A DNA stretch of 49,309 bases, taken from positions 1-49,309 of the forward strand of contig NZ_JABEQE010000023.1 in assembly GCF_014174375.1 (NCBI RefSeq). The letters are read 5' to 3'. Under the pieces are notes generated by a model. The model had not been told where the DNA came from, did not search any database, and saw only the letters and a list, made by a program, of their open reading frames with translations. Made by a program: the position numbers and the translations under genes. Positions 877-24,462 of this stretch are shown here, one piece after another. This DNA is from Gluconacetobacter asukensis (GTDB lineage: Bacteria; Pseudomonadota; Alphaproteobacteria; Acetobacterales; Acetobacteraceae). Every line of letters starts with the position of its first letter. The first letter of the stretch is position 1.

Positions 877-1041
877 AGAGGCTGTTTCAAAAGCCCCGCT
901 GGCGGCGGCCTGACGGCGGTTTCCTGCGCTTCGGTGCTCACGGCCCACAAGGCCGCTCCGCTCCGATGCTCAAAAACCACCGCCAGACGCGCGGCTGACG
1001 CCGCGCTTCCACTCACCATCAGGGCTTTTGAAATAGCCTCT
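877..1041 (+). repeat. Structured dispersed repeat, copy 1 (MITE-like, complete)
   Basis: A 165-bp element between phoU and the Spy-like gene. Its ends are inverted repeats: AGAGGCTGTTTCAAAAGCCC at 877-896 and its complement at 1022-1041, with 19 of 20 positions matching. TA precedes the left end and follows the right end. Inside are two hairpins: CGGCC-CACAA-GGCCG (about 945-960) and a 7-bp stem GCGCGGC-TGAC-GCCGCGC (about 990-1010). The interior aligns with copies 2-4 (for example TGCGCTTCGGTGCTCAC). It starts 45 bp after the phoU stop. This element fills most of the 832-1148 gap; nothing else coding was seen there. Confidence 0.8.
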
Positions 1042-1148
1042 TACATTTCGTAGCACAAAGGCCTGATTTCGAACCGGCTTTGCATGGTTAGATTTCATGG
1101 TTGGGCCGGGGGCGACCCCGGGCCGGTTACGGAAATAGAGGCTCACAC

Positions 1149-1667
1149 ATGTTCAAGAAGACGATCCTGGCAGTGACGGTCCTGGCCGGCCTGTCGGCAA
1201 CGGTGGCCCAGGCCCGTGATATGCCGCCGCCGCCTCCCGGCCCGGGTTTCCATGGCGGCTGGGGCACGCGTCATGGCCTGGAGGTTCTGGCCGGGCTGCA
1301 GCTGACTCCGGCGCAGCACAAGCAGATCCATGCAATCCTGGCCGCCGCGCGCAAGGACAAGCGTGGGGACTGGAAGCAGGAAGGCGCGCTGCATGAGCAG
1401 ATCCGCGACCTGCTGCTGGCGCCCGGCCCGGTCGACCGGGCGAAGCTGACGTCGCTGACCCAGCAGATCGAAGCCCTGCATCAGGCCGCCATCGACAGCC
1501 GGCTGGACGTGGCGGTGAAGATCCATGACATCCTGACGCCCGCGCAGTTGGCCGATGCCAAGGCGCGCGAGGACAAGATCCGTTCGCTGCACGAGCAGCT
1601 GGACGAGCTGACGGCGCCGCCCCCGCCGCCCGCCAAGGGCGCGCCCAAGGAAGACGGCGCGGAATAA
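1149..1667 (+). CDS. Spy/CpxP-like periplasmic LTXXQ protein
   Basis: A 172-residue predicted exported protein. Residues 1-22 form a Sec signal peptide (KK, hydrophobic core, cleavage near VAQA). The mature part begins proline-rich and contains two copies of the LTxxQ motif that defines the Spy/CpxP family (LTPAQHKQI and LTPAQLADA) in an all-helical region. Family members are periplasmic ATP-independent chaperones or envelope-stress sensors. The C-terminus is a proline/lysine tail. ATG 1149 was chosen over the upstream in-frame 1101 because the signal peptide starts there and GAGG sits just upstream. It stands alone, with a strong hairpin behind it. The family is clear; the precise partner is unknown. 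Confidence 0.82.
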   Translation: MFKKTILAVTVLAGLSATVAQARDMPPPPPGPGFHGGWGTRHGLEVLAGLQLTPAQHKQIHAILAAARKDKRGDWKQEGALHEQIRDLLLAPGPVDRAKLTSLTQQIEALHQAAIDSRLDVAVKIHDILTPAQLADAKAREDKIRSLHEQLDELTAPPPPPAKGAPKEDGAE

Positions 1668-1705
1668 GGCGCCCGGAATAAGGCGTACAGGCAGTCGCGA
1701 CTCCA

Positions 1706-1734
1706 CCGGGGCGGCCATTCCGAGGCCGCCCCGG
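1706..1734 (+). terminator. GC-rich hairpin after the Spy-like gene
   Basis: A perfect 11-bp stem, CCGGGGCGGCC / GGCCGCCCCGG, with a 7-base loop, 39 bp after the stop codon. There is no T-run behind it, so it is only a probable terminator. It also separates the Spy-like gene from the ffh promoter region. Confidence 0.6.
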
Positions 1735-1744
1735 ACCGGAATCG

Positions 1745-1773
1745 TTGACAGCGGGAGGGGAGGGGCGTAAAGC
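1745..1773 (+). promoter_or_regulatory. Candidate sigma-70 promoter of the ffh operon
   Basis: TTGACA at 1745-1750, a 17-bp spacer, then TAAAGC at 1768-1773. The -35 element is perfect and the -10 weak. It lies about 75 bp ahead of the chosen ffh start and just after the terminator hairpin. The position fits a promoter for the ffh-rpsP-rimM-trmD-rplS run; this is inference from sequence only. Confidence 0.4.
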
Positions 1774-1846
1774 CTCCCCCGAAATCAGGACCGCCGCCTC
1801 GCGAGTGTTCGCGCAGTGGCGCGATATCTTTTGGGGTGAACGTCCT

Positions 1847-3232
1847 TTGTTCGAGGCGCTGTCAGGTAAGCTTTCCGGTGTGTTCGACGGCCTCGCCAAG
1901 CGCGGCGCGCTGTCCGAGGCCGATGTGGCCGAGGCGATGCGCGAGGTGCGTCTGGCGATGCTGGACGCCGACGTGGCCCTGCCGGTCGTCAAGGACTTCG
2001 TCACCAAGGTGCGCGAGCGCGCCGTGGGGCATGAGGTGCTGGACAGCATCTCGCCCGGCCAGGCCGTGGCCAAGATCGTCAATGACGCGCTGATCGACGC
2101 GCTGGGCGGCGCGGGCGCGGTGCCGCTGAACCTGAATGCGGTTCCGCCGGTGCCGATCCTGATGGTCGGCCTGCAGGGCTCGGGCAAGACCACGACCTCG
2201 GGCAAGATCGCCCTGCGGCTGGCGACCCGCGAGCGCAAGAAGGTGCTGCTGGCCAGCCTGGATACCCAGCGCCCGGCCGCGCAGTTGCAGTTGCAGCAGC
2301 TTGCCGAGCGCGCGGGCGTGCCCTCGCTGCCGATCGTGCCCGGCCAGACGCCGGTCGAGATCGCGCGGCGGGCCATGGATACCGGGCGGCGCGAGGGTTT
2401 CGACGTCGTCATCCTCGACACCGCCGGCCGCCTGTCGATCGACGAGGCGCTGATGAACGAGGTGCGGGAGATCCGCGCCGAGACGTCGCCGACCGAAACC
2501 CTGCTGGTCGTCGATGCGATGACCGGCCAGGATGCCGTCAACACCGCCCGCGCGTTCAACGAGGCCGTGGGCGTGACCGGCGTGGTCATGACCCGGATGG
2601 ACGGCGATGCCCGTGGCGGCGCCGCGCTGTCGATGCGGGCCGTGACCGGCGCGCCGATCAAGCTGACCGGCTCGGGCGAGAAGCTGGACGCGCTGGAGGA
2701 GTTCCATCCCGAGCGCGTGGCCGGCCGTATCCTGGGCCTGGGCGATATCGCCGGTCTGGTGGAGAAGGCCGCCGATACCCTGGATCATGAAGAGAGCGAG
2801 AAGATCGCCCTCAAGATGATGCAGGGCAAGTTCGACCTGGACGACTATGCCGCGCAGATCCGCCAGATCGCGAAGATGGGTTCGCTGTCGGGGATTCTCG
2901 ACATGCTGCCCGGCATGGGCAAGGTCAAGCAGGCGCTGGGCGACAAGGACCTGGATACCTCGGTCCTGAAGCGCCACCAGGCCATCATTTCGTCCATGAC
3001 CCGGGCGGAGCGCAAGACGCCCGCCATCATCAAGGCGTCGCGCAAGAAGCGTATCGCCGCCGGGTCGGGCAGCACTGTTCAGGACGTCAACCGGCTGCTG
3101 AAGCAGTTCGATGACATGTCCACGATGATGAAGCGGATCAACAAGCTGGGCATGAAAGGTCTCATGCGCCAGGGGATGTCCGCTCTCATGCCCAAGGGGC
3201 CGAAACCGCCCGGCGGCCGTCCGTTCGGCTGA
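1847..3232 (+). CDS. ffh: Ffh, signal recognition particle GTPase (SRP54)
   Basis: The protein subunit of the bacterial SRP. It binds 4.5S RNA and signal sequences and delivers ribosomes to FtsY at the membrane. It has the N domain (helical bundle, residues 1-100), the G domain with P-loop GLQGSGKTT (108-116), DTQRPAA, DTAGR and TRMDGD motifs, then a methionine-rich M domain ending in GGRPFG. With TTG at 1847 as start ([16 protein letters not shown]) it is 461 residues, normal for the family, and GGGGTGA lies 7 bases upstream. An in-frame TTG at 1745 would add 34 residues with no family counterpart. It is the first gene of the conserved ffh-rpsP-rimM-trmD-rplS order. Confidence 0.96.
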
Positions 3233-3299
3233 CGCGATCGACCAGATCGTTTCGTCCCTGTCCGCATTCCGCACGTTTTCATTTCGGAGAATTGCCTCA

Positions 3300-3650
3300 A
3301 TGAGCCTGAAGATCCGCCTCGCCCGCGCCGGCGCGAAGAAGCGCCCCTACTACCACATCGTGGTGGCCGACAGCCGTTCGCCCCGCGACGGCCGTTTCGT
3401 CGAGAAGGTTGGCGCCTACAACCCGATGCTGCCCTCCGATCATGCCGACCGCATCCGTCTGACGAGCGAGCGCATCACGTACTGGCTGTCGCAGGGCGCC
3501 CTGCCGACCGACCGCGTTGCCCGCTTCCTGGGCAATGCCGGCCTGATCGCGAAGCCGGTCTATACCGAGCAGCCGAAGCAGTCCGCGCCGAAGAAGCGTG
3601 CGCAGGAGCGTGCCGCCGCTGCCGCCGCCGCTGCTGCCGCCACGGCCTGA
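3300..3650 (+). CDS. rpsP: 30S ribosomal protein S16
   Basis: A 116-residue S16 with the hallmark N-terminus [20 protein letters not shown] and [19 protein letters not shown]16 binds 16S rRNA and helps 30S assembly. The alanine- and lysine-rich tail (a run of alanines at the C-terminus) is a common alphaproteobacterial extension. GGAGAA lies upstream of ATG 3300. It sits 67 bp after ffh and 37 bp before rimM, in the classical operon order. Confidence 0.97.
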
Positions 3651-3687
3651 GCCAACGGGCGGATAGGAACACGGACGGGCTGAACCG

Positions 3688-4251
3688 GTGGATCGCGATC
3701 GTATCCTGATGGGTGTGGTGGGGCGGCCGCATGGCGTGCGGGGGCTGGTGCGCGTGCACAGCTACGCCACCGTGCCGGAAGACCTGACTTCCTATGGAAC
3801 GCTGACCGACGACCGGGGACAGGTCTGGACCCTGCGCTGGCGCGGTGACGGCATTGCCGAACTGCGCGACGCGGCGGGTCAGCCTGTGGCAGGGCGGGAA
3901 GCCGCCCAGGCCCTGGTCAACCGCCGCCTGTACATCGCGCGGGCCAGCCTGCCGGAGCCCGATCAGGACGAATTCTATTTTGCCGACCTGATCGGCCTGC
4001 CGGTTCACGAGCAGGGTGGCAGGTCGCTGGGGCGCGTCCTGGTCGTCCATGATTACGGCGCCGGGGTCAGCCTGGAGATCGGCGGGGAGGGGCATGCGCC
4101 CCTGATCCTGCCCTTTACCCAGGCCTGTTTCCCGGTGATCGACATCGCTGCCGGCCGGATCGAAGCGGTCCTGCCGGACGAGGTCGAGGTGCAGGGCGAC
4201 CTGTCGTCGGAGGGGGGCGATGTCTCCCCTGCCGTCGGGGGGGCGTCATGA
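3688..4251 (+). CDS. rimM: Ribosome maturation factor RimM
   Basis: A 187-residue protein of normal RimM length. RimM helps mature the 16S rRNA 3' domain and binds S19 in the 30S head. It shows the N-terminal RimM beta-barrel ([18 protein letters not shown]) and the C-terminal PRC-barrel with FYFADLIGL and the closing [24 protein letters not shown] motif. The start is GTG 3688, with only a weak Shine-Dalgarno. The stop overlaps the trmD start (ATGA), so translation is coupled. Confidence 0.95.
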
Positions 4252-4994
4252 CCTGGCAGGCCACGATCCTGACCCTCTTCCCCGGCATGTTTCCCGGTCC
4301 GCTCGGCCAGTCGCTGGCCGGACGGGCGCTGGAGGACGGGCTGTGGTCGCTCGACCTGCGCGACCTGCGGGAATACGGCCTTGGGCGGCATCGGACGGTG
4401 GACGATACGCCCTTCGGCGGCGGGGCCGGCATGGTCATGCGTCCGGATGTGGTGGCCACCGCGATCCGCGACGTGGCGGCCGCCGGGCGCCCGGTGATCT
4501 ATCCCACTCCGCGCGGGCGGTTGCTGCGCCAGGATGACGTCCGTCGCCTGACCAGTGGCCCCGGAATCGTGGTGCTGTGCGGGCGCTACGAGGGGGTGGA
4601 TGAGCGGGTGCTGGAGGAATGCGCCGTCGAGCAGGTCTCGATCGGCGATTATGTCCTCTCCGGCGGGGAGATGGCGGCCCTGGTGCTGCTGGATTCCTGC
4701 GTTCGGCTGATCCCCGGCGTCATGGGCTCGGACGCCAGCGGCACGGAGGAAAGCTTCTCCGACGGGCTGCTGGAATATCCGCATTACACCAAGCCGGCGA
4801 GCTGGGAGGGGCGCGATGTCCCCGACATCCTGCTGTCCGGTCATCACGCCGCCATCGCAAGCTGGCGGCAGACTGAATCCGAGACGGCGACCCGCGTCCG
4901 CCGGCCCGACCTCTGGGCCGCGTATCGGCGCCGCACCGGCCAAGACACGTCCGATCCGGTCAGCCATGCGGCTGATCCCGACCGGCTGCACTGA
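4248..4994 (+). CDS. trmD: tRNA (guanine-37-N1)-methyltransferase TrmD
   Basis: A 248-residue SPOUT-class methyltransferase that methylates G37 of tRNAs reading CNN codons and prevents +1 frameshifts. Visible motifs are the N-terminal [10 protein letters not shown], the [13 protein letters not shown] loop, [12 protein letters not shown] and [18 protein letters not shown], which forms the trefoil-knot AdoMet site. The start overlaps rimM by 4 bp. It precedes rplS by 30 bp in the conserved operon. A gene for its substrate tRNA-Pro(GGG) lies elsewhere in this window, probably by coincidence. Confidence 0.97.
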
Positions 4995-5024
4995 TTAGAC
5001 TGTTTTGAAACGAGGAACCCGATC

Positions 5025-5405
5025 ATGAACATTATCCAGCAGTACGAGGCCGGTGAGATCGCCCGCCTCTCCACCGAGCGTGCGGTCCCCGAATTCGGCC
5101 CCGGCGACACGGTCCGCGTGTCGGTCCGCGTTGTCGAAGGCGAGCGCAAGCGCGTCCAGGCCTATGAAGGCGTGGTGATCGCCCGTTCGAACAAGGGGCT
5201 GAACAGCAACTTCACCGTTCGCAAGATCTCGAACGGCGAGGGCGTCGAGCGCGTGTTCCCGCTCTATTCCCCCACGATCGCCGAGATCAAGGTCGTGCGC
5301 CGTGGTGCCGTGCGTCGTGCGAAGCTGTATTATCTGCGTGGCCGTCGCGGCAAGTCGGCGCGTATCGCCGAGCGCGCCCGCGAGACGGTGACGGCCCAGG
5401 CTTGA
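5025..5405 (+). CDS. rplS: 50S ribosomal protein L19
   Basis: A 126-residue L19, which sits at the 30S-50S interface. Family signatures are [45 protein letters not shown] and [18 protein letters not shown], followed by [20 protein letters not shown] lies 9 bases upstream of ATG 5025. It is the last gene of the ffh operon and is followed by a strong hairpin. Confidence 0.97.
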
Positions 5406-5440
5406 TCATCGCCTGATCACCATCTGATACGCGATGCGTC

Positions 5441-5488
5441 GCGCCGCCCACCGCCCTGGCCGGGCGGGCGGCGCATCGCCCTGATTTT
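5441..5488 (+). terminator. Terminator after rplS
   Basis: Outer stem GCGCCGCC (5441-5448) pairs with GGCGGCGC (5467-5474); inner stem CGCCC/GGGCG closes a TGGCC loop. A short T-run (GATTTTA) follows at 5483-5488. The position at the end of the ribosomal operon fits a rho-independent terminator. The rest of the gap before leuC shows no leucine-rich leader peptide. Confidence 0.55.
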
Positions 5489-5569
5489 ACGGGTTCGTTC
5501 CTTCGCCGCCTGTGTGTTCGCGGGCGGCGGGGCCGTGCCCCGCCATGCCGTTCCGAAGGGGAAAGACCG

Positions 5570-6973
5570 ATGGCCGCACGCACGCTGTTCGACAAGATCT
5601 GGGACAGTCATGTCGTGGAACGGCTTGAGGACGGCACGGCCATTCTCTATATCGACCGGCACCTCGTGCATGAGGTGACGAGCCCGCAGGCGTTCGAGGG
5701 GCTGCGTGTCAGCGGCCGCCGCCTGCGCCGGCCCGACGCCACCATCGCGGTGGTCGACCATAACGTGCCGACCTCGGACCGCACCCTGCCGATCGAGGAG
5801 CCGGAAAGCCGCAACCAGATCGAGACGCTGGAGCGCAATGTCCGCGAATTCGGCGTGCCGTATTTCCCGCTTCTGTCGGAACGGCAGGGCATCGTGCATG
5901 TGGTGGGGCCGGAGCAGGGGATTTCGCTGCCCGGCATGACCATCGTCTGCGGTGACAGCCATACCTCGACCCATGGCGCGATGGGCGCACTGGCGTTCGG
6001 CATCGGCACGTCCGAGGTCGAGCATGTGATGGCGACCCAGACCCTGCTGCAGAAGCCCGCCCGCAACATGAAGGTGGTGGTCGAGGGCACGCTGGGCGCG
6101 GGCGTGACCGCCAAGGACGTGATGCTGGCCATTATCGGCACCATCGGCACCGCCGGCGGCACCGGCTATGTGATCGAATTCGCGGGTTCGACCATTCGCG
6201 GGCTGGACATGGCCGGGCGGATGACGATCTGCAACATGTCGATCGAGGCGGGTGCCCGTGCCGGGCTGGTGGCGCCGGATGAGACGACCTTTGAGTATGT
6301 GCGCGGCCGGCCTTTCGCCCCGCAGGGCGAGGCGTTCGAGCAGGCGGTGGCCTACTGGAAGACGCTGGCGGCCGACGAGGGTGCGCAATACGACAAAATC
6401 GTGGAATTGCGGGCCGAGGATATTCCGCCGGTCCTGACCTGGGGCACCAGCCCCGAGACGGTGATCCCGGTTTCCGGCACCGTTCCCGATCCGGCGGCGG
6501 AAAGCGACGAGGCGAAGCGCGCGCAGTTGCAGCGCATGCTCGACTATATGGGGCTGGAGGCTGGGCAGAAGATCGCCGGCGTGCCGGTCGATGTCGTCTT
6601 TATCGGCTCCTGCACCAACAGCCGGATCGAGGATCTGCGTTCGGCGGCGTCGATCGTGGCGGGGCGGCATGTGGCGCCGGGCGTGCGCGCCATGGTGGTG
6701 CCGGGTTCTGGCATCGTGAAGGCGCAGGCCGAGCGTGAGGGGCTGGATCGGGTCTTTCTCGATGCCGGTTTCGAATGGCGCGAGGCGGGGTGTTCGATGT
6801 GCCTGGGCATGAACCCCGACCGGCTGACGCCGGGGCAGCGCTGCGCCTCGACCTCCAACCGCAATTTCGAGGGGCGCCAGGGACCGGGTGGGCGCACCCA
6901 TCTGCTCTCGCCCGCGATGGCGGCGGCGGCGGCGGTGACGGGACATCTGACGGACGTGCGGGAGCTGATCTGA
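5570..6973 (+). CDS. leuC: 3-isopropylmalate dehydratase large subunit
   Basis: A 467-residue aconitase-superfamily subunit. With LeuD it isomerises 2-isopropylmalate to 3-isopropylmalate in leucine biosynthesis. The three [4Fe-4S] ligands are visible: Cys348 (IGSCTNSR) and Cys408/Cys411 ([12 protein letters not shown]). [21 protein letters not shown] and [16 protein letters not shown] are also family signatures. The start has a strong ribosome-binding site (GAAGGGGAAAG). It is the first of leuCDB, with leuD 3 bp after the stop. No attenuator or leader peptide was seen upstream. Confidence 0.97.
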
Positions 6974-6976
6974 ACC

Positions 6977-7600
6977 ATGGATAAATTCACCGTCCTGACC
7001 GCGATCGCGGCGCCTCTGCCGGAAGCGAACATCGACACGGACAAGATCATTCCGGCGCGGTTCCTCAAGACCACCAAGCGTTCCGGCCTGGGCGTGCATG
7101 CCTTCGACGGCATGCGCTACAATCAAGACGGGTCGGAGAAGCCGGATTTCGTGCTGAACCGGGAGCCTTATCGCAAGGCCGGCATCCTGATCACCCATGA
7201 CAATCTGGGGTGCGGTTCGTCGCGGGAGCACGCGCCCTGGGCGCTGCTGGATTTCGGCATCCGTTGCGTGATCGCGCCGTCCTTCGCCGATATCTTCTTC
7301 AATAACTGCTTCAAGAACGGAATCCTGCCGATCCGCCTGCCGCGCGAGATCTGCGATGCGCTGATGGACGATGCGCGGCTGGGCGCCAATGGCCGGCTGA
7401 CGGTCGATCTGGAGCGCCAGGTGGTCGTGCGGCCCGATGGCGAAGAGATCGGGTTCGAGATCGACCCGCTGCGCAAGCATCTGCTGCTGGAAGGGCTGGA
7501 CGATATCGGCCAGACCCTGCAGCACGAAGGCGCGATCAGCACGTTCGAGGCCACGCGCGGTCAGGCCCAGCCCTGGCAGACGCAAATCGTCATCGACTGA
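6977..7600 (+). CDS. leuD: 3-isopropylmalate dehydratase small subunit
   Basis: A 207-residue swivel-domain partner of LeuC. Signatures are [19 protein letters not shown] near the N-terminus, [16 protein letters not shown] (substrate-recognition loop) and [17 protein letters not shown]. The length is normal for bacterial LeuD. It starts 3 bp after leuC, so translation is probably coupled. leuB follows after 45 bp. Confidence 0.97.
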
Positions 7601-7645
7601 CCATCGCGCCCTGCGCCGTCTATTTGTCACGACAGGAAACGAGAA

Positions 7646-8758
7646 ATGACCGTTACCAAGAAGCTCCTTGTCCTGCCCGGCGACGGGATCGGCCCCGAGG
7701 TGATGAACGAGGTCGCGCGTGTCGTGGCGTGGATGGGCCGCAAGCGCGGTATTGCCTTCGATATCTCCGAGGATCTGGTGGGCGGTGCGTCGCTGGCGGT
7801 CCATGGCGTGCCGATTCGTGACGAGGTGATCGTGGCGGCCCGCGCGGCGGATGCGGTGCTGTTCGGCTCGGTCGGCGATCCGAAATGGGCGTCGGTCGGC
7901 TTCGATCTGCGGCCGGAGGTCGCGATCCTGAAGCTGCGGCAGGAGCTGGGGCTGTTTGCCAACCTGCGCCCCGCGAAGGTGTTCGACGCGCTGGCCGAGG
8001 CCAGCACGCTGAAGCCCGAAGTGGTGGCCGGGCTGGATATCATGATCGTACGTGAATCCGTGGGCGGCATCTATTTCGGCACCCCGCGCGGAATCGAGAC
8101 GCTGCCCGACGGCACGAAGCGCGGCATCAACACCGAAATCTACACCACGTCCGAGATCGAGCGCGTGGCGCGGGTTGCCTTCGACCTGGCGCGGCAGCGC
8201 GGCAACCGCGTCTGTTCGGTCGAGAAATGCAACGTGATGGAAAGCGGCCTGCTGTGGAAGGAGGTCGTGACCGCGCTGCATGCACGCGAATATGCGGATG
8301 TGGAACTGACCCACATGCTGGCCGACAATTGCGCCATGCAGCTTGTGCGCAATCCGCGCCAGTTTGACGTCATTGTGACCGGCAATCTGTTCGGCGACCT
8401 GCTGTCGGATCTGGCGTCGATGTTGACCGGCAGCCTGGGCATGCTGCCTTCGGCCACGCTGGGTGCGGTGGATGAGGACGGGGGGCGTCCGGCGCTGTAT
8501 GAGCCGATCCATGGCAGCGCGCCCGACATCGCCGGCAAGGGAATCGCCAATCCGCTGGCGCAGATCCTCTCGTTTGCGATGCTGCTGCGCTATTCCTTCG
8601 CGATGGAAGCGGAGGCCGCGCTGATCGAGCAGGCGGTGGCCAATGTGCTGGCCAGCGGTCTGCGCACCGCCGATATCATGAGCCCCGGCATGGCCCAGGT
8701 CGGTACCACCGTGATGGGTGAGGCCGTGGTGCGCGAACTGGACAAGCTGAACGGCTGA
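7646..8758 (+). CDS. leuB: 3-isopropylmalate dehydrogenase
   Basis: A 370-residue NAD-dependent beta-decarboxylating dehydrogenase that oxidises 3-isopropylmalate. Motifs are the N-terminal [26 protein letters not shown], the [24 protein letters not shown] region, [24 protein letters not shown] (metal-binding Asp residues) and [20 protein letters not shown] (NAD site). AGGAAACGAG precedes ATG 7646. It is the last gene of leuCDB. A short C/G-rich inverted repeat near 8775-8793 may end the transcript, but it lacks a T-run. Confidence 0.97.
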
Positions 8759-8828
8759 TCCGATCCGGCATTCGTCCCCCGGGCCGCGGGGGACGGTATC
8801 GGGCTTCCCACGGGCCGGAACATCTGGA

Positions 8829-10949: not shown

Positions 10950-11035
10950 GGGCGTGACCGGAACACGGGGCGGGCGCGGCCCTTCGGGCCGCTCTCGTTT
11001 CCCCCGCCCCTGTGTCCAGTCATGCTCCGGGCATG

Positions 11036-11074
11036 AAAAAAGCCGGCCTCCCGAAGGAGGCCGGCTTTTTTGCG
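11036..11074. terminator. Bidirectional terminator between S9 peptidase and rpsU
   Basis: AAAAAAGCCGGCCTCC and GGAGGCCGGCTTTTTT form a perfect stem around the short loop CGAA. A-run on one side and T-run on the other make it a rho-independent terminator on both strands, fitting the convergent S9 peptidase gene and rpsU. Confidence 0.93.
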
Positions 11075-11096
11075 GGGATCGACGCCTGGCGGCGGA

Positions 11097-13294: not shown

Positions 13295-13307
13295 GCCGGG
13301 ACGGATA

Positions 13308-14030: not shown

Positions 14031-14054
14031 GGGCAGGCGGGAAGGAGGCCATCC

Positions 14055-15449: not shown

Positions 15450-15468
15450 GGTCGGTCAGACGTTGATC

Positions 15469-15557
15469 GAGCGGAGCGGCCATGACGGCCGTGAGCGCCG
15501 ACGCACAGGAAATGCGTGTCGGATCGCCGGCAGGACGGCTTTGCAGGCAGGCTTTTA
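15469..15557 (-). repeat. Structured dispersed repeat, copy 2 (partial), abutting bamE stop
   Basis: Read on the minus strand, the repeat starts at the bamE stop TAA: AAGCCTGCCTGCAAAGCC, then GGCGATCCGACACGC, TGCGTCGGCGCTCAC and the hairpin CGGCC-GTCAT-GGCCG followed by CTCCGCT. These blocks align with copies 1 and 4. The second half (second hairpin and right terminal repeat) is missing or too diverged. It fills most of the gap between the convergent kinase and bamE genes. Confidence 0.7.
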
Positions 15558-16118: not shown

Positions 16119-16285
16119 GGCCTGTGGGGCGTCCTGATCCGGGGAAAACTCTTCCGTCCGGTGCCCGATTGGGGTGGCTAAGTCAATTCTTCATCGCCAT
16201 ACAGGGAGCATTATCAGCATCGGGCGCGCGGATTACCGGGCCGCCCCCGGGGCGGCAGCAGGACAGGATGCGGGAGCAGGACAGG

Positions 16286-16837: not shown

Positions 16838-16988
16838 CGGAGGCACTAGGTGTGTGCCGGGGGTGCCGTAGTGAGAAGATATCTTGCGAGTTCGCTTTCT
16901 TCCTGCTAGAGGCGCCCCCTCATTATCGATAACTGATCGGGTTCCAGCCGGGCCCGGTTAAGATCCCAGATCGGAGGGGCCCGGGCCC

Positions 16989-17192
16989 ATGGCTGTACCC
17001 AAAAGAAAAACCTCGCCGTCCCGTCGCGGCATGCGCCGCAGCCACGAGGCGCTGAGCGTGCAGGCACATGCCGAATGCGCGAATTGCGGCGAACTGAAGC
17101 GCCCGCATCATGTCTGCAGCCATTGCGGCCATTATGACGGCCGTGAGGTCGTTGCGGCTGGCAAGACGCTGAAGACCGCCGTCCGGGCCTGA
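16989..17192 (+). CDS. rpmF: 50S ribosomal protein L32
   Basis: A 67-residue L32: [19 protein letters not shown] is the classic N-terminus. The zinc ribbon is intact, with two CxxC pairs (CANC and CSHC), so this is the zinc-binding form. It sits between the DUF177 gene and plsX, as in most alphaproteobacteria. The 151-bp gap upstream has no other gene. Confidence 0.97.
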
Positions 17193-17313
17193 CCCGCGGC
17201 GCATGGCCGTGCGGATGCGATAAGCGTGACCCGTCAGATGGCGGGCCACGCTTCCTGCGACACGATTCCGTGACGGCCTTGCGAATTTGGTGTTCACCCG
17301 GCAGAAGGCAGGC

Positions 17314-18411
17314 ATGAGCGAGACAGGTTCCTCTTTTTCCGGGGCAGAGCCCTTCACGCTGGCGGTTGACGGCATGGGGGGGGACGGCGGTCCGGAAGTT
17401 GTGGTGGCCGGCTTGGCGATTGCTGCCGACAGGCACCCCGGCACACGGGTTCTGCTGATCGGGGATGAGCACCGTCTGACCGAGACACTGGCCCGCCACC
17501 CCAAGGCCGCCGCGATCTGCACGGTGCGCCCCGCTGGCAGTGCCATCCCCATGGACATGAAGCCGACGGCCGCGCTGCGCGTGCGGGATTCGTCGATGCG
17601 GCTGGCAATGGATGCCGTGGCGCAGGGCGAGGCCCTGGGCGTGGTATCGGCCGGCAACAGCGGCGCGATGCTGGCGCTGGCCAAGATTGTCATCAAGACC
17701 CTTCCCGGTGTCTCCCGTCCCGCCATGGCGGCCATCAGCCCGACGCTGAAGGGCGATGTCGTGATGCTGGACCTGGGCGCCAATGTCGCCTGTGACGCGC
17801 GCAACCTCGTCGAATTCGCGGTGATGGGCGAGGCCTTCGCCAAGGCGGTGCTGGGCCTGCCCGCGCCGACCATCGGCCTGCTGAATGTCGGGTCCGAAGA
17901 GGTGAAGGGCGACGAGAAGCTGCGCCAGGCGGCCGAGATCCTGCGCAACAGCCCCCTGGCAGCGCAGTTCCATGGCTTCGTCGAAGGACATGACATCACC
18001 GCCGGCACCACCGACGTGGTGGTGACCGACGGCTTTACCGGCAATGTCGCGCTGAAGACCGGCGAGGGCGCGCTGAAGATGGCGTTCGTCCTGCTGCGCC
18101 AGGTCTTCCGCTCGGGCCTGCTGGCCAAGCTGGGCTACCTGCTGGTGCGTCCGGGACTGGAGCGCATGCGCGAATGGCTGGACCCGCGCCGGTATAATGG
18201 CGCGGTATTCGTCGGCCTCAATGGTGTCGTGGTCAAATCGCATGGCGGGACCGACGCCGAAGGCTTTGCATCGGCGGTGGATGTTGCCATGGATATGGTA
18301 TCGCACCGGTTCAACGAGAGCATAAGGGACCAGATCTCCCGACTGGAGACGCTGTCCGTCATGCGGCCGGGCGTGGAAAAGGAACAGCCGGCGGTCGCAG
18401 CCGTAAGCTGA
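17314..18411 (+). CDS. plsX: Phosphate acyltransferase PlsX
   Basis: A 365-residue enzyme that converts acyl-ACP and phosphate to acyl-phosphate at the start of phospholipid synthesis. Visible signatures are LAVDGMGGDGGPEVVVAGL at the N-terminus, SAGNSGAMLALAKI, LDLGANVACDARNLVEFAVMG, GLLNVGSEEVKGDE and VVVTDGFTGNVALKTGEG. ATG 17314 has GAAGG 5 bases upstream; TTG 17287 or GTG 17290 would add nine residues. fabH follows 54 bp later. Confidence 0.96.
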   Translation: MSETGSSFSGAEPFTLAVDGMGGDGGPEVVVAGLAIAADRHPGTRVLLIGDEHRLTETLARHPKAAAICTVRPAGSAIPMDMKPTAALRVRDSSMRLAMDAVAQGEALGVVSAGNSGAMLALAKIVIKTLPGVSRPAMAAISPTLKGDVVMLDLGANVACDARNLVEFAVMGEAFAKAVLGLPAPTIGLLNVGSEEVKGDEKLRQAAEILRNSPLAAQFHGFVEGHDITAGTTDVVVTDGFTGNVALKTGEGALKMAFVLLRQVFRSGLLAKLGYLLVRPGLERMREWLDPRRYNGAVFVGLNGVVVKSHGGTDAEGFASAVDVAMDMVSHRFNESIRDQISRLETLSVMRPGVEKEQPAVAAVS

Positions 18412-18465
18412 CCCGCCCCGCCGGGGCGGTGCGTCTCCATCGCGGGGGCGAGGGCCGGGCTTGGA

Positions 18466-19443
18466 ATGATGGGAATGATGGCGAGACGTTCGCTTATGGT
18501 CGGGTTTGGCGGGTATCTGCCGGACCGGATCGTGACCAATGACGAGCTGGCGGCTCGCCTCGAGACTTCGGACGAATGGATACGGGCCCGTACCGGGATC
18601 GGCCAGCGTCATATTGCCGGGCCGCAGGATACTGCCGTCAGCATGGCGGCGGCCGCGGCGACGCGGGCGCTGGAGTATGCCGGTATGGCGGCGGCGGATG
18701 TCGGCGCCGTCATCGTTGCGACCAGCACGCCGGACCAGGCTTTTCCCGCCACCGCTGTCCGGGTGCAGGCCGAGCTGGGAATGCGCGGCGGCTTCGGCTT
18801 CGATATCGCGGCGGCGTGCTCGGGCTTCATCTATGCGCTGACCGTGGCCGACTCGCTGATCCGGAGCGGCCAGACGGATTCGGCCCTGGTGATCGGCAGC
18901 GAAGTCTATTCGCGCATTCTCGACTGGTCGGATCGCGGCACTTGCGTGCTGTTCGGCGACGGCGCGGGCGCCGTGCTGCTGAAGGCCGGGGATGCCGCGC
19001 AGCCGGCCGGCATTCTGTCCACGCATCTGCATTCGGACGGCACGACGGGCGACCTGCTCTATGTCGATGGCGCGGTGGGGTTGCGGGAGCAGTCCGGTTT
19101 CCTGCGCATGCAGGGGCGCGACGTGTTCCGCCACGCGGTGGCCAAGCTGTCATCCTCGGTGGACGAGGTGCTGCAGGCCAATGGCCTGGCCTATGCCGAC
19201 GTGTCGTGGCTGGTGCCGCACCAGGCCAATCTGCGGATTATCGAGGCTGTTGCCCGCAAGCTGGAACTGCCGCCCGAGCGCGTGGTGGTGACGGTCGACA
19301 AACATGCCAATACCTCGGCGGCGTCGATCCCGCTGGCGATGAACGAGGCCGTGCGCGACGGGCGCATCCGCAAGGGCGACCTGGTGCTGATGGAAGCGCT
19401 GGGCGGTGGTCTGACCTGGGGATCGGCCCTGGCACGGATCTAG
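18466..19443 (+). CDS. fabH: Beta-ketoacyl-ACP synthase III
   Basis: A 325-residue condensing enzyme starting fatty-acid synthesis from acetyl-CoA and malonyl-ACP. The Cys-His-Asn triad is Cys118 (AAACSGF), His252 (VPHQANLRI) and Asn282 (KHANTSAASIP). GFGGYLPDRIVTNDELA and GDGAGAVLL are also typical. The first Met could be 18466, 18469 or 18478; ATG 18478 (MARRSLMVGFG) gives the most usual N-terminus, and no strong Shine-Dalgarno decides. The stop TAG runs straight into structured repeat copy 3. Confidence 0.96.
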   Translation: MMGMMARRSLMVGFGGYLPDRIVTNDELAARLETSDEWIRARTGIGQRHIAGPQDTAVSMAAAAATRALEYAGMAAADVGAVIVATSTPDQAFPATAVRVQAELGMRGGFGFDIAAACSGFIYALTVADSLIRSGQTDSALVIGSEVYSRILDWSDRGTCVLFGDGAGAVLLKAGDAAQPAGILSTHLHSDGTTGDLLYVDGAVGLREQSGFLRMQGRDVFRHAVAKLSSSVDEVLQANGLAYADVSWLVPHQANLRIIEAVARKLELPPERVVVTVDKHANTSAASIPLAMNEAVRDGRIRKGDLVLMEALGGGLTWGSALARI

Positions 19444-19539
19444 GGGCTGGCCGGGAATGCGCGCTGGTGGCGATCCGGCGCGCGTTTCCTGTGTTTTGTG
19501 GCACTCTCGCTCACCAGCCCGCATTTCCGGTCAGCTTCC
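19444..19539 (+). repeat. Structured dispersed repeat, copy 3 (internally deleted), abutting fabH stop
   Basis: It begins directly after the fabH stop TAG: GGGCTGGCCGGGAATGCGCGC, TGGTGGCGATCCGGCG, then jumps to GTGGCACTCTCGCTCACCAGC and the right terminal repeat GCATTTCCGGTCAGCTTCC. Compared with copy 4, the central stretch with hairpin 1 and the left arm of hairpin 2 is lost. Weak similarity to the copy 4 flank continues to about 19575. It occupies much of the fabH-ihfA gap. Confidence 0.75.
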
Positions 19540-19634
19540 ACGCCCCTACGCCGTCAGGGAGGGGGCTTTCGGGGCCTCTAAGGTGGCTTGCCGGGCACCG
19601 AACGTGAAAAAATAGTGCGGCTTAACGCATTGAA

Positions 19635-19664
19635 TTGACGCGTCCTCGTCGCATGCCATAGTTT
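19635..19664 (+). promoter_or_regulatory. Candidate ihfA promoter
   Basis: TTGACG (19635-19640), an 18-bp spacer and TAGTTT (19659-19664), ending 6 bp before the ihfA ATG. If used, transcription would start at or near the start codon. No Shine-Dalgarno is visible between this element and ATG 19671, consistent with a leaderless or very short-leader mRNA. Confidence 0.4.
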
Positions 19665-19670
19665 TGCGGC

Positions 19671-19988
19671 ATGAGCACCGTGACCCGCGCCAGTCTGGCA
19701 GAGCATATTTATAGTCAGGTCGGACTCTCCCGTAATGAGTCGGCCGACCTTCTCGAACATGTGCTCGAGCGCGTCGCGAAGGAGCTCGAGGGCGGGAATA
19801 CCGTCAAAATCAGCGGATTCGGGACGTTCTCCGTCCGTCAGAAGGGGCGCCGGACCGGCCGCAATCCGAAGACGGGCGTGGAAGTGCCGATCCTGCCGCG
19901 ATCGGTCCTGGTCTTCCGCCCCAGCCAGCTTCTGCGGGCGCGCGTCAATGGCCGGCAGGTCGACGGCATCGAGGATGACGGTGAATGA
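19671..19988 (+). CDS. ihfA: Integration host factor alpha subunit
   Basis: A 105-residue HU/IHF-family DNA-bending protein. [29 protein letters not shown] and the beta-arm region [24 protein letters not shown] fit the alpha subunit, as does the gene order fabH-ihfA-merR known in alphaproteobacteria. IHF bends DNA sharply at specific sites for recombination, replication and sigma-54 promoters. A possible promoter lies immediately upstream with no clear ribosome-binding site. The stop overlaps the MerR start (ATGA). Confidence 0.94.
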
Positions 19989-20659
19989 GCATTCTCAGCA
20001 CCGGGCAGGAGGACTGGCCGGATTCCGGCATGCCGGAGCCCGGCGAGGGTGCCGACCCCCACGTGCTCGATGACGCAGCCGGCGCCGGCCGCCTGAAGAA
20101 GGCGCCCCATGCGTTCCGCACCATCAGCGAAGTGGCGGACGAGCTGCATGTGCCGCAGCATGTGCTGCGTTTCTGGGAGACGCGGTTCAGCCAGGTCCGC
20201 CCGCTGAAGCGGGGCGGTGGCCGGCGCTATTATCGTCCCGACGATATCGAATTGCTGCGCCGGATCTCGGACCTGCTCTATGTGCAGGGTTATACGATCA
20301 AGGGGGTGCAGCGCATGCTGCGCGAGGGTGGAGACGCCGGCGCACCCTATGCCGCGACGCCCGCCGAGGCGGCGGAAGAGCTTGATCTGGCGCCTCACGC
20401 TTCGCCGGCAGCTGACGCCGCGCCTGTGGCGGTGGAGCCGGTGGATAGCGGCATTGTGGTGGAAAGCGTGGTCGAATCGGTCGTGGTCGTGACGGCGGAG
20501 GCCGAATCGGCTGAGCCGGCTCCTGCGATTCCGGTTGAGGAAACGGCTGCAGACTCCTCGGAGATCGAGCGAATCCATCGCGAGAACCTGATCCTGAAGG
20601 ACAGTCTGCGCGGGATTCTGGTGGAATTGCAGGCCCTGAGGCGGTTGATTCCGGTCTGA
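19985..20659 (+). CDS. MerR-family transcriptional regulator (ihfA-linked)
   Basis: A 224-residue protein with a MerR-type HTH at residues 44-115 ([27 protein letters not shown] ... [30 protein letters not shown]). There is no metal-binding cysteine set of the MerR/CueR type. The middle is Ala/Val/Glu-rich and low in complexity; the C-terminus ([23 protein letters not shown]) is a likely coiled coil for dimerisation. This family regularly follows ihfA in alphaproteobacteria. It overlaps ihfA by 4 bp, so it is co-translated. Targets are unknown. Confidence 0.88.
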
Positions 20660-20742
20660 ACCGGATTTGGTGCCAGATTGGTGGCACTCATGGGTTGCGG
20701 AGTATGGCGCACGCTGCTACACGGCGTGTCGTCGCAGACGGA

Positions 20743-20816
20743 CGGGCAGTAGCGCAGCCTGGTAGCGCATCAGTCTGGGGGACTGGGGGTCGTGGGTTCG
20801 AATCCCGCCTGCCCGA
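20743..20816 (+). tRNA. tRNA-Pro (anticodon GGG)
   Basis: A full cloverleaf can be drawn: acceptor stem CGGGCAG/CTGCCCG with A73, D stem GCGC/GCGC, anticodon stem TCAGT/ACTGG, loop CTGGGGG with anticodon GGG at 20777-20779, 5-base variable loop and T arm GTGGG-TTCGAAT-CCCGC. The CCA end is not encoded. It decodes CCC/CCU. It lies 83 bp after the MerR gene and does not seem to carry an integrated element: the downstream gene is an ordinary permease on the other strand. Confidence 0.96.
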
Positions 20817-20902
20817 TATTCCCGTCTGCGACCATTTCCCTTGGTAAAATCGACGGATAGATGACTTGGGGCGCGGTTCGCGCCGGCTTGACGCCGGCCG
20901 GT

Positions 20903-22072
20903 TCAGCCCAGGCTTGGGTCCGGCAGGTCGTCGATCTCCTCGCGCTCGGCGCGCGTGGGGTCCTGGATGCGGTCGCGCGTCCAGTTGCGCCAGATCAGGT
21001 GCAGGACCGACATGATGGCGGGCCCGATGAACAGGCCCAGCAGGCTCCAGCTTTCCACCCCGCCCAGAATGCTGACCAGGACCCACAGGAAGGGCATCTG
21101 GGTCGATCCGCCGATCAGCGCGGGCCGGACGAAATGGTCGGCGAAGAAGATGACGGCCATGCCCAGGCAGAAGATGACGAGGGCGGCGATGACCGTCCCT
21201 TTGACCAGCAGGGCTAGTGCGACCAGCGTGACGGCGATGACGGCGCAGAACGGGATCATGGCCGCCACGGCGGTGAAGACGCCGAACAGGAACGGGTGCT
21301 GGGCGCCCGCGATCAGGTAGGCGACGCCCATCAGCGCGCCTTCGCCCAGACCCACCAGCACCAGCCCGGCGACCGTGCCGTGGATCGAGGCCACGATCTG
21401 CTCGGCGATGGTCTCGCCCCGCTTGCCGAAGGCCCGGCGCGAGACCACCAGGCATTGGCGGGTTACCACGTCGCCATCCTTCAGCAGGAAGAACAGGGTG
21501 AGGATGGTGAAGATGAACAGCAGGCCGCGATGGAAGACCTGCGTCCCCACCTGCTGCGTCATGCGCATGCTGCGTCCGATATTGAACGAATGCAGCAGTT
21601 CCGAGACATCCTCCGGGTCCTGCAGATGCTGCTGCCACCAGTTGGTGATGGCCGAGGCGCCGGCGGGCAGGCGGCGGAGCCAGCCCGGCACCGGCACGCC
21701 CGAATGGCGCGCGATGTCGGCCCAGTTCAGGACGCCCTGGGCCTCGCGCCCGGCCTCCAGTGCGAACAGGCCCATCGGAATCAGGAAGATGAGGGCGATT
21801 GCCGTGGTGAACAGCAGCGGCAGGGTGATGCCGTCGGGCCGGAACTTCCAGCGATCGCGGATGGTGACATAGGGCGGCCATGCCGCGATGGCGAAGATGA
21901 CGCCCCAGATCAGCGACGGCAGGAACCCCCGGACCGTATAGAGCCCCAGGGCAACGAAGGATGTGGCCAGCAGCCCGCGGGCGATGCGCTGCACCTTGTG
22001 GCGTTCGCGCATCTGGCGGAACGGCGACCGGTCCATGGGGGGGACGATCGCGGGGCTGGCGTGGTCCGTCAT
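20903..22072 (-). CDS. AI-2E family transporter (YdgG/PerM-type membrane protein)
   Basis: A 389-residue polytopic membrane protein of the AI-2E exporter-like superfamily. Hydrophobic segments lie near residues 30-75 (paired), 155-180 and 210-340. Motifs are LPSLIWGVIFAIAAWP, FTILTLFFLLKDGDVV, EGALMGVAYLIAGAQHPFLFGV and the C-terminal IGPAIMSVLHLIWRNW typical of the family. Members export autoinducer-2 or ions, or have unknown substrates; none is shown here. ATG 22072 has AAAGGA 5 bases upstream, better placed than ATG 22075. It starts about 20 bp after the oligopeptidase B stop, in the same transcript. Confidence 0.88.
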   Translation of the reverse strand: MTDHASPAIVPPMDRSPFRQMRERHKVQRIARGLLATSFVALGLYTVRGFLPSLIWGVIFAIAAWPPYVTIRDRWKFRPDGITLPLLFTTAIALIFLIPMGLFALEAGREAQGVLNWADIARHSGVPVPGWLRRLPAGASAITNWWQQHLQDPEDVSELLHSFNIGRSMRMTQQVGTQVFHRGLLFIFTILTLFFLLKDGDVVTRQCLVVSRRAFGKRGETIAEQIVASIHGTVAGLVLVGLGEGALMGVAYLIAGAQHPFLFGVFTAVAAMIPFCAVIAVTLVALALLVKGTVIAALVIFCLGMAVIFFADHFVRPALIGGSTQMPFLWVLVSILGGVESWSLLGLFIGPAIMSVLHLIWRNWTRDRIQDPTRAEREEIDDLPDPSLG

Positions 22073-22092
22073 CATGATCCTTTGCTCGGGCG

Positions 22093-24171
22093 TCACGGCA
22101 GCTTCGTGCCATCCGCCGCCCAGATGGCGAAGGCCTGAATCAGGGCGGCCTCCTTCAGCGCGTCGAAACGGCCCGACGCGCCGCCATGGCCGGCTTCCAT
22201 ATTGATGCGCAGCATGATCGGGCGCGGCGAAATGGTATGTTCCCGCAGGCGGGCCACCCATTTGGCTGGCTCCCAATAGGTCACGCGCGGGTCCGACAGG
22301 CCGCCGATGGCCAGGATGGCGGGGTAGGGGCGCGGGCCCACCTGTTCGTAGGCGGCGTAGCCGGCGATCAGGTCATAGGCGTCCGGGTCCTCCAGCGGAT
22401 TGCCCCATTCCGGCCATTCCGGCGGTGTCAGGGGTAGGCTGGTGTCCGACATGGTGTTCAGCTCGTCCACGAAGGGTACCACCGCCACGATGCCTCCGAA
22501 CAGGTCGGGGCGCATGTTGGCGATCGCCCCCATCACCATGCCGCCGGCCGAACGGCCATCGCTGACGATCCGTCCGGCGCGGGTGAAGCCAGTGGCGACC
22601 AGATGTTCGGCGCAGGCGATGAAATCGGTGAAGCTGTTGGGCTTGTTGCGCCCGCGTCCGCCGAGGAACCAGTTCCAGCCTTTCTCCGACCCGCCCCGCA
22701 CGTGGGCGATGGCGTAGAACCAGCCCCGGTCCACCAGGCTGAAGACACCGGTGGAGAAGGTGGGCTCGATCGCATGGCCATAGGAGCCATAGCCGTAGAG
22801 CAGCAGCGGGGCGGAGCCGTCCAGTGGAGTGTCGTGCCGCCCCAGGACGGTGATGGGGACTTCGGTGCCGTCGGGGGCGGTGGCGGTCAGACGCCAGCTT
22901 CGATACTGCGCGGGATCATGGCCCGACGGGACCTCCTGGCTTTTCAGCAGGTGGCGGCTCCGGCTGTGCATGTCGTAGGCGTACCACTGCCGTGGCGTGG
23001 TCGGCGACTGGTAGACGTAGCGCAGTTCGGTCGTGTCGTATTCGTAGGAGCCCGAGAAGGACAGCACGTAGGCGTCCTCGTCGGAGGACAGCACATGGTC
23101 CACGCCGTCCGTGGGGCGGATCACCAGCGCCGTGTTGGCATCGCGGCGCTCGCGCCAGACCAGGTGGCCGGCGAAGGCGACGCAGTCGGTGATGTAGCGG
23201 CCGGGCTCGTGGGGTACCAGGTCGCGCCAGTTTTCCCGTGACAGGGCGGTGTCGGGCGTTTCCATCAGTTTGAAATCGACCGCGCCGTCGGCGTTGGTCA
23301 GGATCGCGAACCGATCGCCCCAGTGGCTGAGTGTGTAGAGCACGCCGCTGCGGCGGGGCTCGACGCAGACGGGTTCGGCCTCGGGGCGTGTGCCGGGGAT
23401 CAGCCAGGATTCGGACGTGTCCTGGTTGCTGGCGGAGATGACGATCCACCGTCCAGAACGGCTGGCCTCGACCCCGATGAAGAAGCCCGGATCGGATTCC
23501 TGATAGACCAGCACGTCCTCGTCGGAGCCGATGCGGCGGCGATAGATCTGCGTCGGGCGGCCGTGCGCGTCGCGCCAGGTCCAGAACAGGTATTGCGCGT
23601 CGGGCGAGAAGGCGAAATTGCCGCTGCAGCTTTCGATGGCCGGCCCGACCGGCGCGCCGCTGGCGATGTCGCGGATGATGACGCGATAGACTTCGGAGCC
23701 CTGATTGTCTTCGGCATGGGCGAACAGGCGGTGATCGGGGCTGTGCGTCGCGGTGGCGACGGCGAAATAGTCGTGGCCCTGCGCTGCGCGCTCGACATCC
23801 AGCAGGATGGTTTCCTCATCCGGCCGGCCGGCCGGATGGCGGGCATGGACGGGGTGCTGCGCCCCGGTGTTGTAGCGCATGTAATAGCGCCAGGGGCCGT
23901 GCGGCAGGGCGGGATAGGTTTCGTCCTCGCGGATGCGGCCGCGCATCTCGGCGACGATGGTGGCCTGCAGGGCCTCGGTCGGCGCCAGGATGGCGGCGGT
24001 ATAGGCGTTTTCGGCCCGCAGGTGGGCTGCGATGTCCGCGCGCAGCAGGGATGGGTCGCGCAGGACGGCCTGCCAGTTCTCGTCCTTCATCCAGCCATAT
24101 TCGTCCACGCGCACGCGGCCGAGCTGGGTGATCGTCTGAGGCTCCTTGCGGGCGACCGGGGCGGTGGTCAT
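22093..24171 (-). CDS. ptrB: Oligopeptidase B (S9A serine peptidase)
   Basis: A 692-residue cytoplasmic oligopeptidase with no signal peptide, cleaving short peptides after Arg/Lys. The propeller half starts at DEYGWMKDENWQAVLRDP and holds ENAYTAAILAP. The catalytic half shows HVRGGSEKGWNW, Ser in SDGRSAGGMVMGA, Asp in GLSDPRVTYWEP and His in EAGHGGASGR, the sequence typical of PtrB rather than prolyl oligopeptidase. The start ATG 24171 has GGAGAGAG upstream. It is followed by the AI-2E-type gene about 20 bp later. Upstream lies structured repeat copy 4. Confidence 0.95.
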   Translation of the reverse strand: MTTAPVARKEPQTITQLGRVRVDEYGWMKDENWQAVLRDPSLLRADIAAHLRAENAYTAAILAPTEALQATIVAEMRGRIREDETYPALPHGPWRYYMRYNTGAQHPVHARHPAGRPDEETILLDVERAAQGHDYFAVATATHSPDHRLFAHAEDNQGSEVYRVIIRDIASGAPVGPAIESCSGNFAFSPDAQYLFWTWRDAHGRPTQIYRRRIGSDEDVLVYQESDPGFFIGVEASRSGRWIVISASNQDTSESWLIPGTRPEAEPVCVEPRRSGVLYTLSHWGDRFAILTNADGAVDFKLMETPDTALSRENWRDLVPHEPGRYITDCVAFAGHLVWRERRDANTALVIRPTDGVDHVLSSDEDAYVLSFSGSYEYDTTELRYVYQSPTTPRQWYAYDMHSRSRHLLKSQEVPSGHDPAQYRSWRLTATAPDGTEVPITVLGRHDTPLDGSAPLLLYGYGSYGHAIEPTFSTGVFSLVDRGWFYAIAHVRGGSEKGWNWFLGGRGRNKPNSFTDFIACAEHLVATGFTRAGRIVSDGRSAGGMVMGAIANMRPDLFGGIVAVVPFVDELNTMSDTSLPLTPPEWPEWGNPLEDPDAYDLIAGYAAYEQVGPRPYPAILAIGGLSDPRVTYWEPAKWVARLREHTISPRPIMLRINMEAGHGGASGRFDALKEAALIQAFAIWAADGTKLP

Positions 24172-24299
24172 CGTCTCTCTCCATCGCTGTCCGACCGGAA
24201 GCCGGGACCAGCCGCGAGCATACAAGACCGCCTGTGGAAGGGACAGAGGGGGACGTGACAGAGAGAGTGGGCGCCCGTCGGCGACGGCAAGAGCACGGT

Positions 24300-24462
24300 A
24301 GAACCTGCCTGGAAATGTGGGCTGGTGAGCGAGAGTGCCGCGAAGCGGCACGGCCGTCGTGTGTTTCCGAGCACCGAAGCGGAGCGACCTTCAGGTCGTG
24401 AGCACCGAAGCGCAGAAAATGCCCGTCGGATCGCCACCAGCGCGCATTTACAGGCAGGTTCT
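24300..24462 (-). repeat. Structured dispersed repeat, copy 4 (complete), overlapping a stop codon
   Basis: A 163-bp element between ptrB and the DUF3574 gene. On the minus strand it reads AGAACCTGCCTGTAAATGCG at its start, and the same ends in inverted form (AGAACCTGCCTGGAAATGTG) at the other side. Internal hairpins: CGACC-TGAA-GGTCG and GTGCCGC-TTC-GCGGCAC. The first base of the element is the last base of the DUF3574 stop TGA. Plus-strand flank at the other end is TA. It is the best-preserved copy together with copy 1. Confidence 0.82.

Follow-up and report, generated by a model that had tools for sequence, protein, structure and literature searches.

The stretch of DNA analyzed in this study, hereafter the window, comprises 49,309 nucleotides of Gluconacetobacter asukensis (contig NZ_JABEQE010000023.1, assembly GCF_014174375.1), and it carries four copies of a short structured repeat that we identify as a mobile element, a miniature inverted-repeat transposable element (MITE). 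According to Pfam, the genes neighboring the copies encode PhoU, a HisKA sensor kinase, a BamE-like protein, FabH and a DUF3574 protein; the closest named genomes to the FabH of the window are Komagataeibacter xylinus (80%) and Novacetimonas (79%). A first-pass annotation had described four dispersed structured copies and had quoted two hairpins whose stems differ between copies by paired substitutions. All four copies were located, and both hairpins are present with their paired differences (Table 1). Its statement that every copy lies between genes stands for copy 1, which follows phoU, and fails for copies 2, 3 and 4, which overlap the stop codons of the bamE-like, fabH and DUF3574 genes. 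Read in its own orientation, copy 2 begins at 15555, the final base of the TAA stop of the bamE-like gene (15555-15557), and copy 4 begins at 24462, where the TGA stop of the DUF3574 gene (24462-24464) ends. The terminal inverted repeats (TIRs) span 26 nt in copy 1 (88% complementary) and 28 nt in copy 4 (89%), and the RNA folds of the two copies reach z scores of -8.2 and -7.4, respectively, against 200 shuffles.

Table 1. Coordinates and structure of the four repeat copies in the window.
Feature	Position	Strand	Description
Copy 1	877..1041	+	Subfamily A, full length, 165 nt; arms AGAGGCTGTTTCAAAAGCC / GGCTTTTGAAATAGCCTCT; downstream of phoU
Left target triplet of copy 1	875..877	.	GTA; the right side (1041-1043) and the empty site read TTA
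Hairpin 1 of copy 1 and outer stem	926..971	+	Inner stem CGGCC-CACAA-GGCCG, 941-955
Hairpin 2 of copy 1	989..1006	+	GCGCGGC-TGAC-GCCGCGC
Copy 2	about 15469..15557	-	Rearranged remnant, mostly the 5' half of the element and the inverse of that half
Copy 3	19442..19539	+	Subfamily B, internal deletion; start on the fabH TAG stop (19441-19443)
Copy 4	24300..24462	-	Subfamily B, full length, 163 nt
Hairpin 2 of copy 4	24335..24351	-	GTGCCGC-TTC-GCGGCAC on the - strand
Hairpin 1 of copy 4 and outer stem	24369..24414	-	Inner stem CGACC-TGAA-GGTCG on the - strand, 24385-24398

Size and spread of the repeat family

The family unit is a nested palindrome of approximately 162 bp that contains no gene. 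A search for further copies in the genome and in relatives had been proposed, and a covariance model derived from an alignment of 32 copies found them in both: at least 144 matches were obtained in the G. asukensis genome (E at most 0.01; 150 of 7,276 candidates scored). With single copies as DNA queries, self and arm-only matches included, at least 52 matches were found for copy 4 (40 of 172 candidates scored) and at least 67 for copy 1 (40 candidates scored). A limited share of the candidates was scored in these genome searches, and the copy numbers are therefore lower bounds; the genome-wide model search overlooked copy 3, which another search recovered. The element was present in every one of the 14 genomes searched from the genus (G. 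asukensis included) and in 19 of the 40 genomes of that search overall. Across the family Acetobacteraceae, it was found in 28 of 150 genomes and 22 of 102 genera (E at most 1e-6). A sample of the class yielded matches in 6 of 240 genomes, one of them G. asukensis and the other five weak (E 6e-11 to 9.5e-7), and two further genomes of the host's family in that sample were without the element.

The copies fall into subfamilies A, B and C and a group of the form AGTTTGTG...AAACG, and there are also singleton arms, such as CCGGAGAGCCG or TAAGCCGGGCC, that have no terminal GAG. A relative of the element, AGAGACTGTTTGGAAATTC...GAATTTGGAAACAGTCTCT, is flanked by TTA triplets on a Mesorhizobium plasmid. 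When copy 1 was used as the query in a plasmid search, four records gave partial matches; a subfamily B copy gave no match in the same kind of search. The core of hairpin 1 (TGCGCTTCGGTGCTCACG...) is partly matched on a Sphingobium plasmid (L343:501-565) and on plasmids of Bosea and Phyllobacterium, which belong to other alphaproteobacterial orders. Adjacent copies occur in 17 of 97 islands of G. asukensis, two copies in 16 islands and three in one (for example, L179:5199-5522, L195:2674-3005 and L209:1049-1578; L numbers denote the loci compared, and G numbers the genomes), and copy orientation is uniform in 16 of these 17, L175:1979-2338 being mixed. The repeat is a large MITE family of which we saw no earlier description in the literature searched; this literature included parts of PMC2765452 (the G. 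diazotrophicus PAL5 genome) and PMC4686929, and its mostly open-access coverage makes it weak evidence of absence.

Insertion at TNA triplets and related insertion sequences

Clean empty sites are found in relatives at six independent loci, namely window copy 1, L196, L195 (1136), L254 with its G007 ortholog, L178 (5892) with its G007 ortholog, and the 3' end of fabH in G009. The empty triplet is TNA (TGA or TTA) at five of the six loci and ambiguous at L195 (1136). Three further empty sites (L205 at 4462, L208 and L232) were obtained by comparison with G004 only. The site of copy 1 is empty in G004, G007 and G001 (CATGC followed by TTACATT), and the element is also absent there in G010 and G006. 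At the fabH site, the empty form in G008 reads CTCTGACGCC and the filled form in G009 reads CTC TGA [GAGCC...GGCTC] TGA GGC, which indicates insertion into the stop codon itself, with duplication of this target. Shortened forms occupy the site of copy 3 in G007, G001 and G004, and genomes such as G002 and G008 have an empty site; G009 has an insertion of about 132 nt there that is apparently a separate event. The site of copy 4 is filled in G007, internally deleted in G004, and without the element in G001, G005, G010 and G006. Equal triplets on both sides were found in 20 of 112 G. asukensis copies of model length, a class whose ends are extrapolated from the profile match and which includes some partial copies; 17 of the 20 are TNA (14 TGA, 2 TCA and 1 TAA), three are not, and C precedes the triplet in 17. 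A near-solo arm, AGAGGCTGTTTCAAAAGCCCTCT, stands in G. asukensis (L179) and G004 (L258) where G007 has a full copy (L318:1273), and it represents either a deletion or an excision scar.

The termini of the element match those of IS5-family insertion sequences (ISs) that carry PF13340 or PF01609 transposases. An IS in G001 ends in GAG(A/C)CTGTTTGG(A/G)AAATC and has a target-site duplication (TSD) of TTA. A multicopy IS in G003 ends in GAGCCCGATCCGAAAG, with a TSD of TTA or TAA in five of the seven copies fetched, ATA in one (L391) and an unreadable triplet in one (L369). The IS of the Gluconobacter oxydans plasmid pGOX2, annotated in its record as IS12528 family, ends in GAGCCCTTTTGGAAAT with a TSD of TAA, and the terminus of a G. 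asukensis IS (L298) is AGAGCCTGTTTTAGAATG. A TNA target and GAG ends are taken here as the marks of the IS1031 group. The repeat has in common with ISs of the IS1031/IS12528 group the terminal GAG, a near-identical TIR of 15-18 bp and the 3-bp TNA duplication, but unlike them it is approximately 162 bp long, has no gene and is palindromic throughout. The terminal GAG and the IS-like TIR are present in the family but not in the copies with private arms. A match to PF13340 transposases at L297 (G000:C16:71418) contains an internal TGA and lies between perfect 18-bp inverted repeats, CTAGGCGCTGTCTGCATT.

The parallel with MITEs, which had been suggested from the window alone, is thus borne out by empty sites, TNA duplication and IS-like TIRs. 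The repeat shares with bacterial MITEs a short non-coding unit, TIRs, target duplication, an intergenic and multicopy distribution, and kinship to a resident IS family. It differs from other MITEs in its exact and oriented occupancy of stop codons, its nested multi-stem palindrome, and arms that vary between copies and match within a copy. The other parallel that had been drawn, with repetitive extragenic palindromes (REPs) and bacterial interspersed mosaic elements (BIMEs), is not upheld. REPs, BIMEs and REPINs are likewise dispersed palindromic extragenic repeats that at times form close tandem pairs, but the present repeat is 162 bp long with TIRs and a 3-bp duplication. A search for the gene of the REP-associated tyrosine transposase (RAYT; Y1_Tnp) was negative in 5 of 5 genomes, the control search being positive in 5 of 14, and this result removes the REP reading. 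According to PMC3733652, CGTC-type REPs are missing from Acetobacteraceae. Among other Alphaproteobacteria, the RIME elements of rhizobia are intergenic palindromic mosaic elements.

Stop codons and orientation

Gene ends were called by a period-3 G+C rule rather than from annotation, and the count of gene tails covers the 97 islands (115 elements) in the G. asukensis stretches. Copies of model length, with the extrapolated ends noted above, also underlie the counts of gene tails and of orientation given below. The stop codon ends exactly on the first base of the element (+1) in 41 of 120 flanking gene tails and within -3 to +6 in 62 of 120, and only 3 of the 97 islands lie between two gene heads. 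Among convergent islands (21 usable of 31), 19 are at a stop, compared with 10.0 (standard deviation 1.6) expected under random TNA use. TAA and TGA stops are TNA sites and an insertion there would leave the gene intact, which is probably why a large share of the copies sits exactly on stops. In seven gene tails, the stop lies at +9, on a TGA within the element arm (as in AGAGCCTGA; L175:989, L178:1813, L184:1002, L185:1062, L186:1002, L234:1039 and L292:1091), and it appears that the element supplies the stop codon there after inserting in the last codons of the gene.

The copies at stops are also oriented. In 77 model-length single copies, the stop is touched by the 5' end in 46 and by the 3' end in 3 (one copy is in both counts), and the corresponding numbers in relatives, whose loci are partly shared with G. 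asukensis, are 45 and 3. Landing on stop codons, mostly in one orientation, is seen in four genomes of the genus. Copies away from stops have the same lean in weaker form, with 21 TGA-oriented and 8 TCA-oriented copies, and 23 of them point toward the tail of the upstream gene and 10 away from it. An orientation set only by the center base of the target is not supported by these off-stop numbers together with those at stops (95 versus 3 copies by end). When the copies were grouped by age class, the orientation ratio was 8:2 for copies absent from relatives (13 copies), 14:1 for shared copies (25), 22:0 for the class of unknown status (40) and 2:0 for ambiguous copies (2), with no clear age effect.

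One explanation of these numbers is that sense copies at stops serve as portable directional terminators, probably Rho-dependent, and that antisense copies have been lost; we consider this possible but doubtful. The strong asymmetry of 46 versus 3 in G. asukensis and its counterpart in relatives would be expected from such loss, as would the rarity of islands between two gene heads. In its 3' part, the sense strand is rich in C and poor in G (0.45 and 0.23, respectively, at positions 119-150), a composition compatible with a Rho-dependent terminator. However, the copies absent from the examined relatives are already at 8 versus 2, and the bias may therefore arise at insertion; the off-stop copies lean likewise; and a terminator-like site was lacking on the sense strand of copy 4, while the sense strand of copy 1 gave a single weak pattern match. 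The search of the copies for terminator and sigma-70 patterns found nothing convincing. We infer that targeting and the loss of antisense copies may each account for part of the orientation bias. Given the position at stop codons, the orientation and the excess of C over G, a directional role at mRNA 3' ends is plausible as a prediction.

Origin of the paired arm changes

The paired changes noted at first between copies are real and exceed chance. Both sides have changed in 27 of 56 pairs (18 of 25 in the outer stem), and the covariation score is 0.322, compared with 0.121 for shuffles and no more than 0.084 for slid controls; none of 500 shuffles scored as high, in a test that does not fully control for the relatedness of the copies. 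In 84 full-length copies, the two arms of a copy match at 1330 of 1512 positions, whereas 883 matches are expected between copies (0 of 2000 shuffles). Subfamily B (65 copies) carries this effect, with 1040 of 1170 positions against 729; in subfamily A (10 copies) it is not clear, as the 156 matches at 180 positions compare with shuffles that average 148 and reach 157 at most. Copies 1 and 4 come from separate subfamilies, A and B, and their base differences are therefore not recent compensations.

The first-pass annotation had taken the conserved pairing as a sign of selection on RNA or cruciform structure. Selection on structure at mRNA 3' ends would account for the high covariation score, for copies that lie at gene ends in one orientation and for the very stable folds. 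We examined 45 pairs of orthologous copies, from which five with more than five arm mismatches (tandem junctions) were dropped; 22 pairs had an interior identity of at least 0.93 and 18 were below. The pairs share loci and are not independent, the 22 close pairs representing 17 G. asukensis loci. In these close pairs, 27 arm changes are one-sided and none is paired, 26 of the 27 flip a pair between matched and mismatched, and the arms differ at 3.4% of sites, compared with 3.3-5.4% in the flanks. Selection should purge changes that create mismatches and favor wobble pairs, and this expectation failed in the close orthologs and had a mixed outcome in the divergent ones. G·U mismatches are not favored on the transcribed strand (22, compared with 31 A·C; p 0.27, 49 copies), and the outer stem has 12 one-sided (wobble) cells versus 146 two-sided cells. 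Because the close-ortholog changes are one-sided and accumulate at the flank rate, because a wobble bias is missing and because there are direct signs of arm copying, selection on RNA structure is not supported, and we regard it as quite improbable. The covariation is best fitted by arms matched at birth and DNA copying.

A direct sign of arm copying is seen at locus L192: each of the two arms has the sequence CCGGAGAGCCGTAGAGGC, and in G004, where the element is absent, the end of the host gene is CCGGAGAGCCGTAAAGGCCC. The far arm therefore looks like an inverted copy of the host flank. At L178 (3063), there are four arm mismatches in G001 and none in G. asukensis and G007, and at L205 (1028), G004 has a perfect 19-bp hairpin where G. 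asukensis has a full copy. The copy at L188:1074-1237 is chimeric, its left half being of subfamily A and its right half of subfamily B; in its G001 ortholog, the two arms are both of type B. This combination suggests exchange between dispersed copies. In a comparison of L231 (G. asukensis) with L308 (G004), the core is inverted relative to the flanks and the arms retain their private outer GACCC.

These observations can be joined in a scheme in which an IS1031-group transposase would recognize the 15-18-bp termini (GAG[C/G]CTG...) and insert the element at TNA triplets in a CTNAG-like context, with duplication of the triplet. The entire unit is a nested palindrome, so the element DNA could fold. 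The arms would match at the birth of a copy and then decay at an approximately neutral rate; template switching during replication would copy one arm from the other, or even host flank into an arm, and together with exchange between copies it would re-match the arms and produce paired changes in the absence of RNA selection. The creation and maintenance of hairpins by template switching is a published idea (PMC8794818). Multi-base matched changes and new stems made by copying one arm are shared with that work; unlike the RNA genes treated there, the hairpin here is a mobile element, and close orthologs show no visible constraint on its pairing.

Private arms could also have belonged to the host. 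If the core element invaded existing host hairpins, such as terminators, near-identical interiors would be found with unrelated arms, as in L222 and L194 (interiors 96% identical, arms 22-28% identical), and arms would match host sequence, as in L192. However, the clean empty sites hold no hairpins and the insertions there have near-canonical arms, and the host at L192, as represented by G004, supplies one arm only. We therefore reject this reading as very improbable. A stronger candidate, though still somewhat unlikely, is a set of several MITE subfamilies, each fitted to the terminus of its own IS, with paired differences that reflect subfamilies and the replacement of copies at the same stop. 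Subfamilies A, B and C and the AGTTTGTG...AAACG group do exist, and four of the 18 divergent ortholog pairs have 6-7 paired changes each (25 in total) and interiors at 0.89-0.91, within the range of unrelated copies; these four pairs are best read as copy replacement or as independent insertion at the same stop. Singleton arms without a terminal GAG, such as CCGGAGAGCCG and TAAGCCGGGCC, are unlikely to have an IS of their own, which counts against this explanation.

We consider the repeat to be a non-autonomous MITE of the IS5 family, IS1031/IS12528 group, with arms matched at birth and later copied by template switching, and place the probability of this reading at roughly 0.8. Several results weigh against it. 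The close ortholog pairs were picked by interior identity, which may favor slowly changing copies, and the 18 divergent pairs have 38 paired and 35 single changes, a figure that also speaks for RNA selection; the 13 paired changes that remain after the four pairs above, 1-3 in each of several divergent pairs, may have arisen in place. Arm positions 19 and 21 are matched in only 31% and 15% of the 65 subfamily B copies, a persistent mismatch that unrestricted arm copying should have repaired. In 193 comparisons with an empty side, 52 had at least 9 of 18 arm positions host-like, and only L192 was a clean host capture by inspection; the G004 form at L178 (3063) is not a clean single-tract copy. 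The triplets flanking the L298 IS are unequal (TTA and TCA), the orientation bias exceeds what TNA targeting alone explains, and the IS1031-group transposase is a predicted mover. A bolder form of the reading, in which the oriented, stop-landing palindrome is a ready-made directional 3' end whose arms are rewritten pairwise by template switching, at times capturing the end of a host gene, so that covariation arises without RNA selection, seems to us unlikely.

With its many copies, the family lets compensatory base changes be tested for a mutational origin, and it is a caution for RNA discovery by covariation in the intergenic repeats of bacteria. A TNA-targeted mini-transposon that lands on stops would also be a natural system for how insertions reshape mRNA 3' ends. 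In the window, Rfam 15 at the gathering score gave no match to the element, its sole match being the tRNA gene at 20743-20816.

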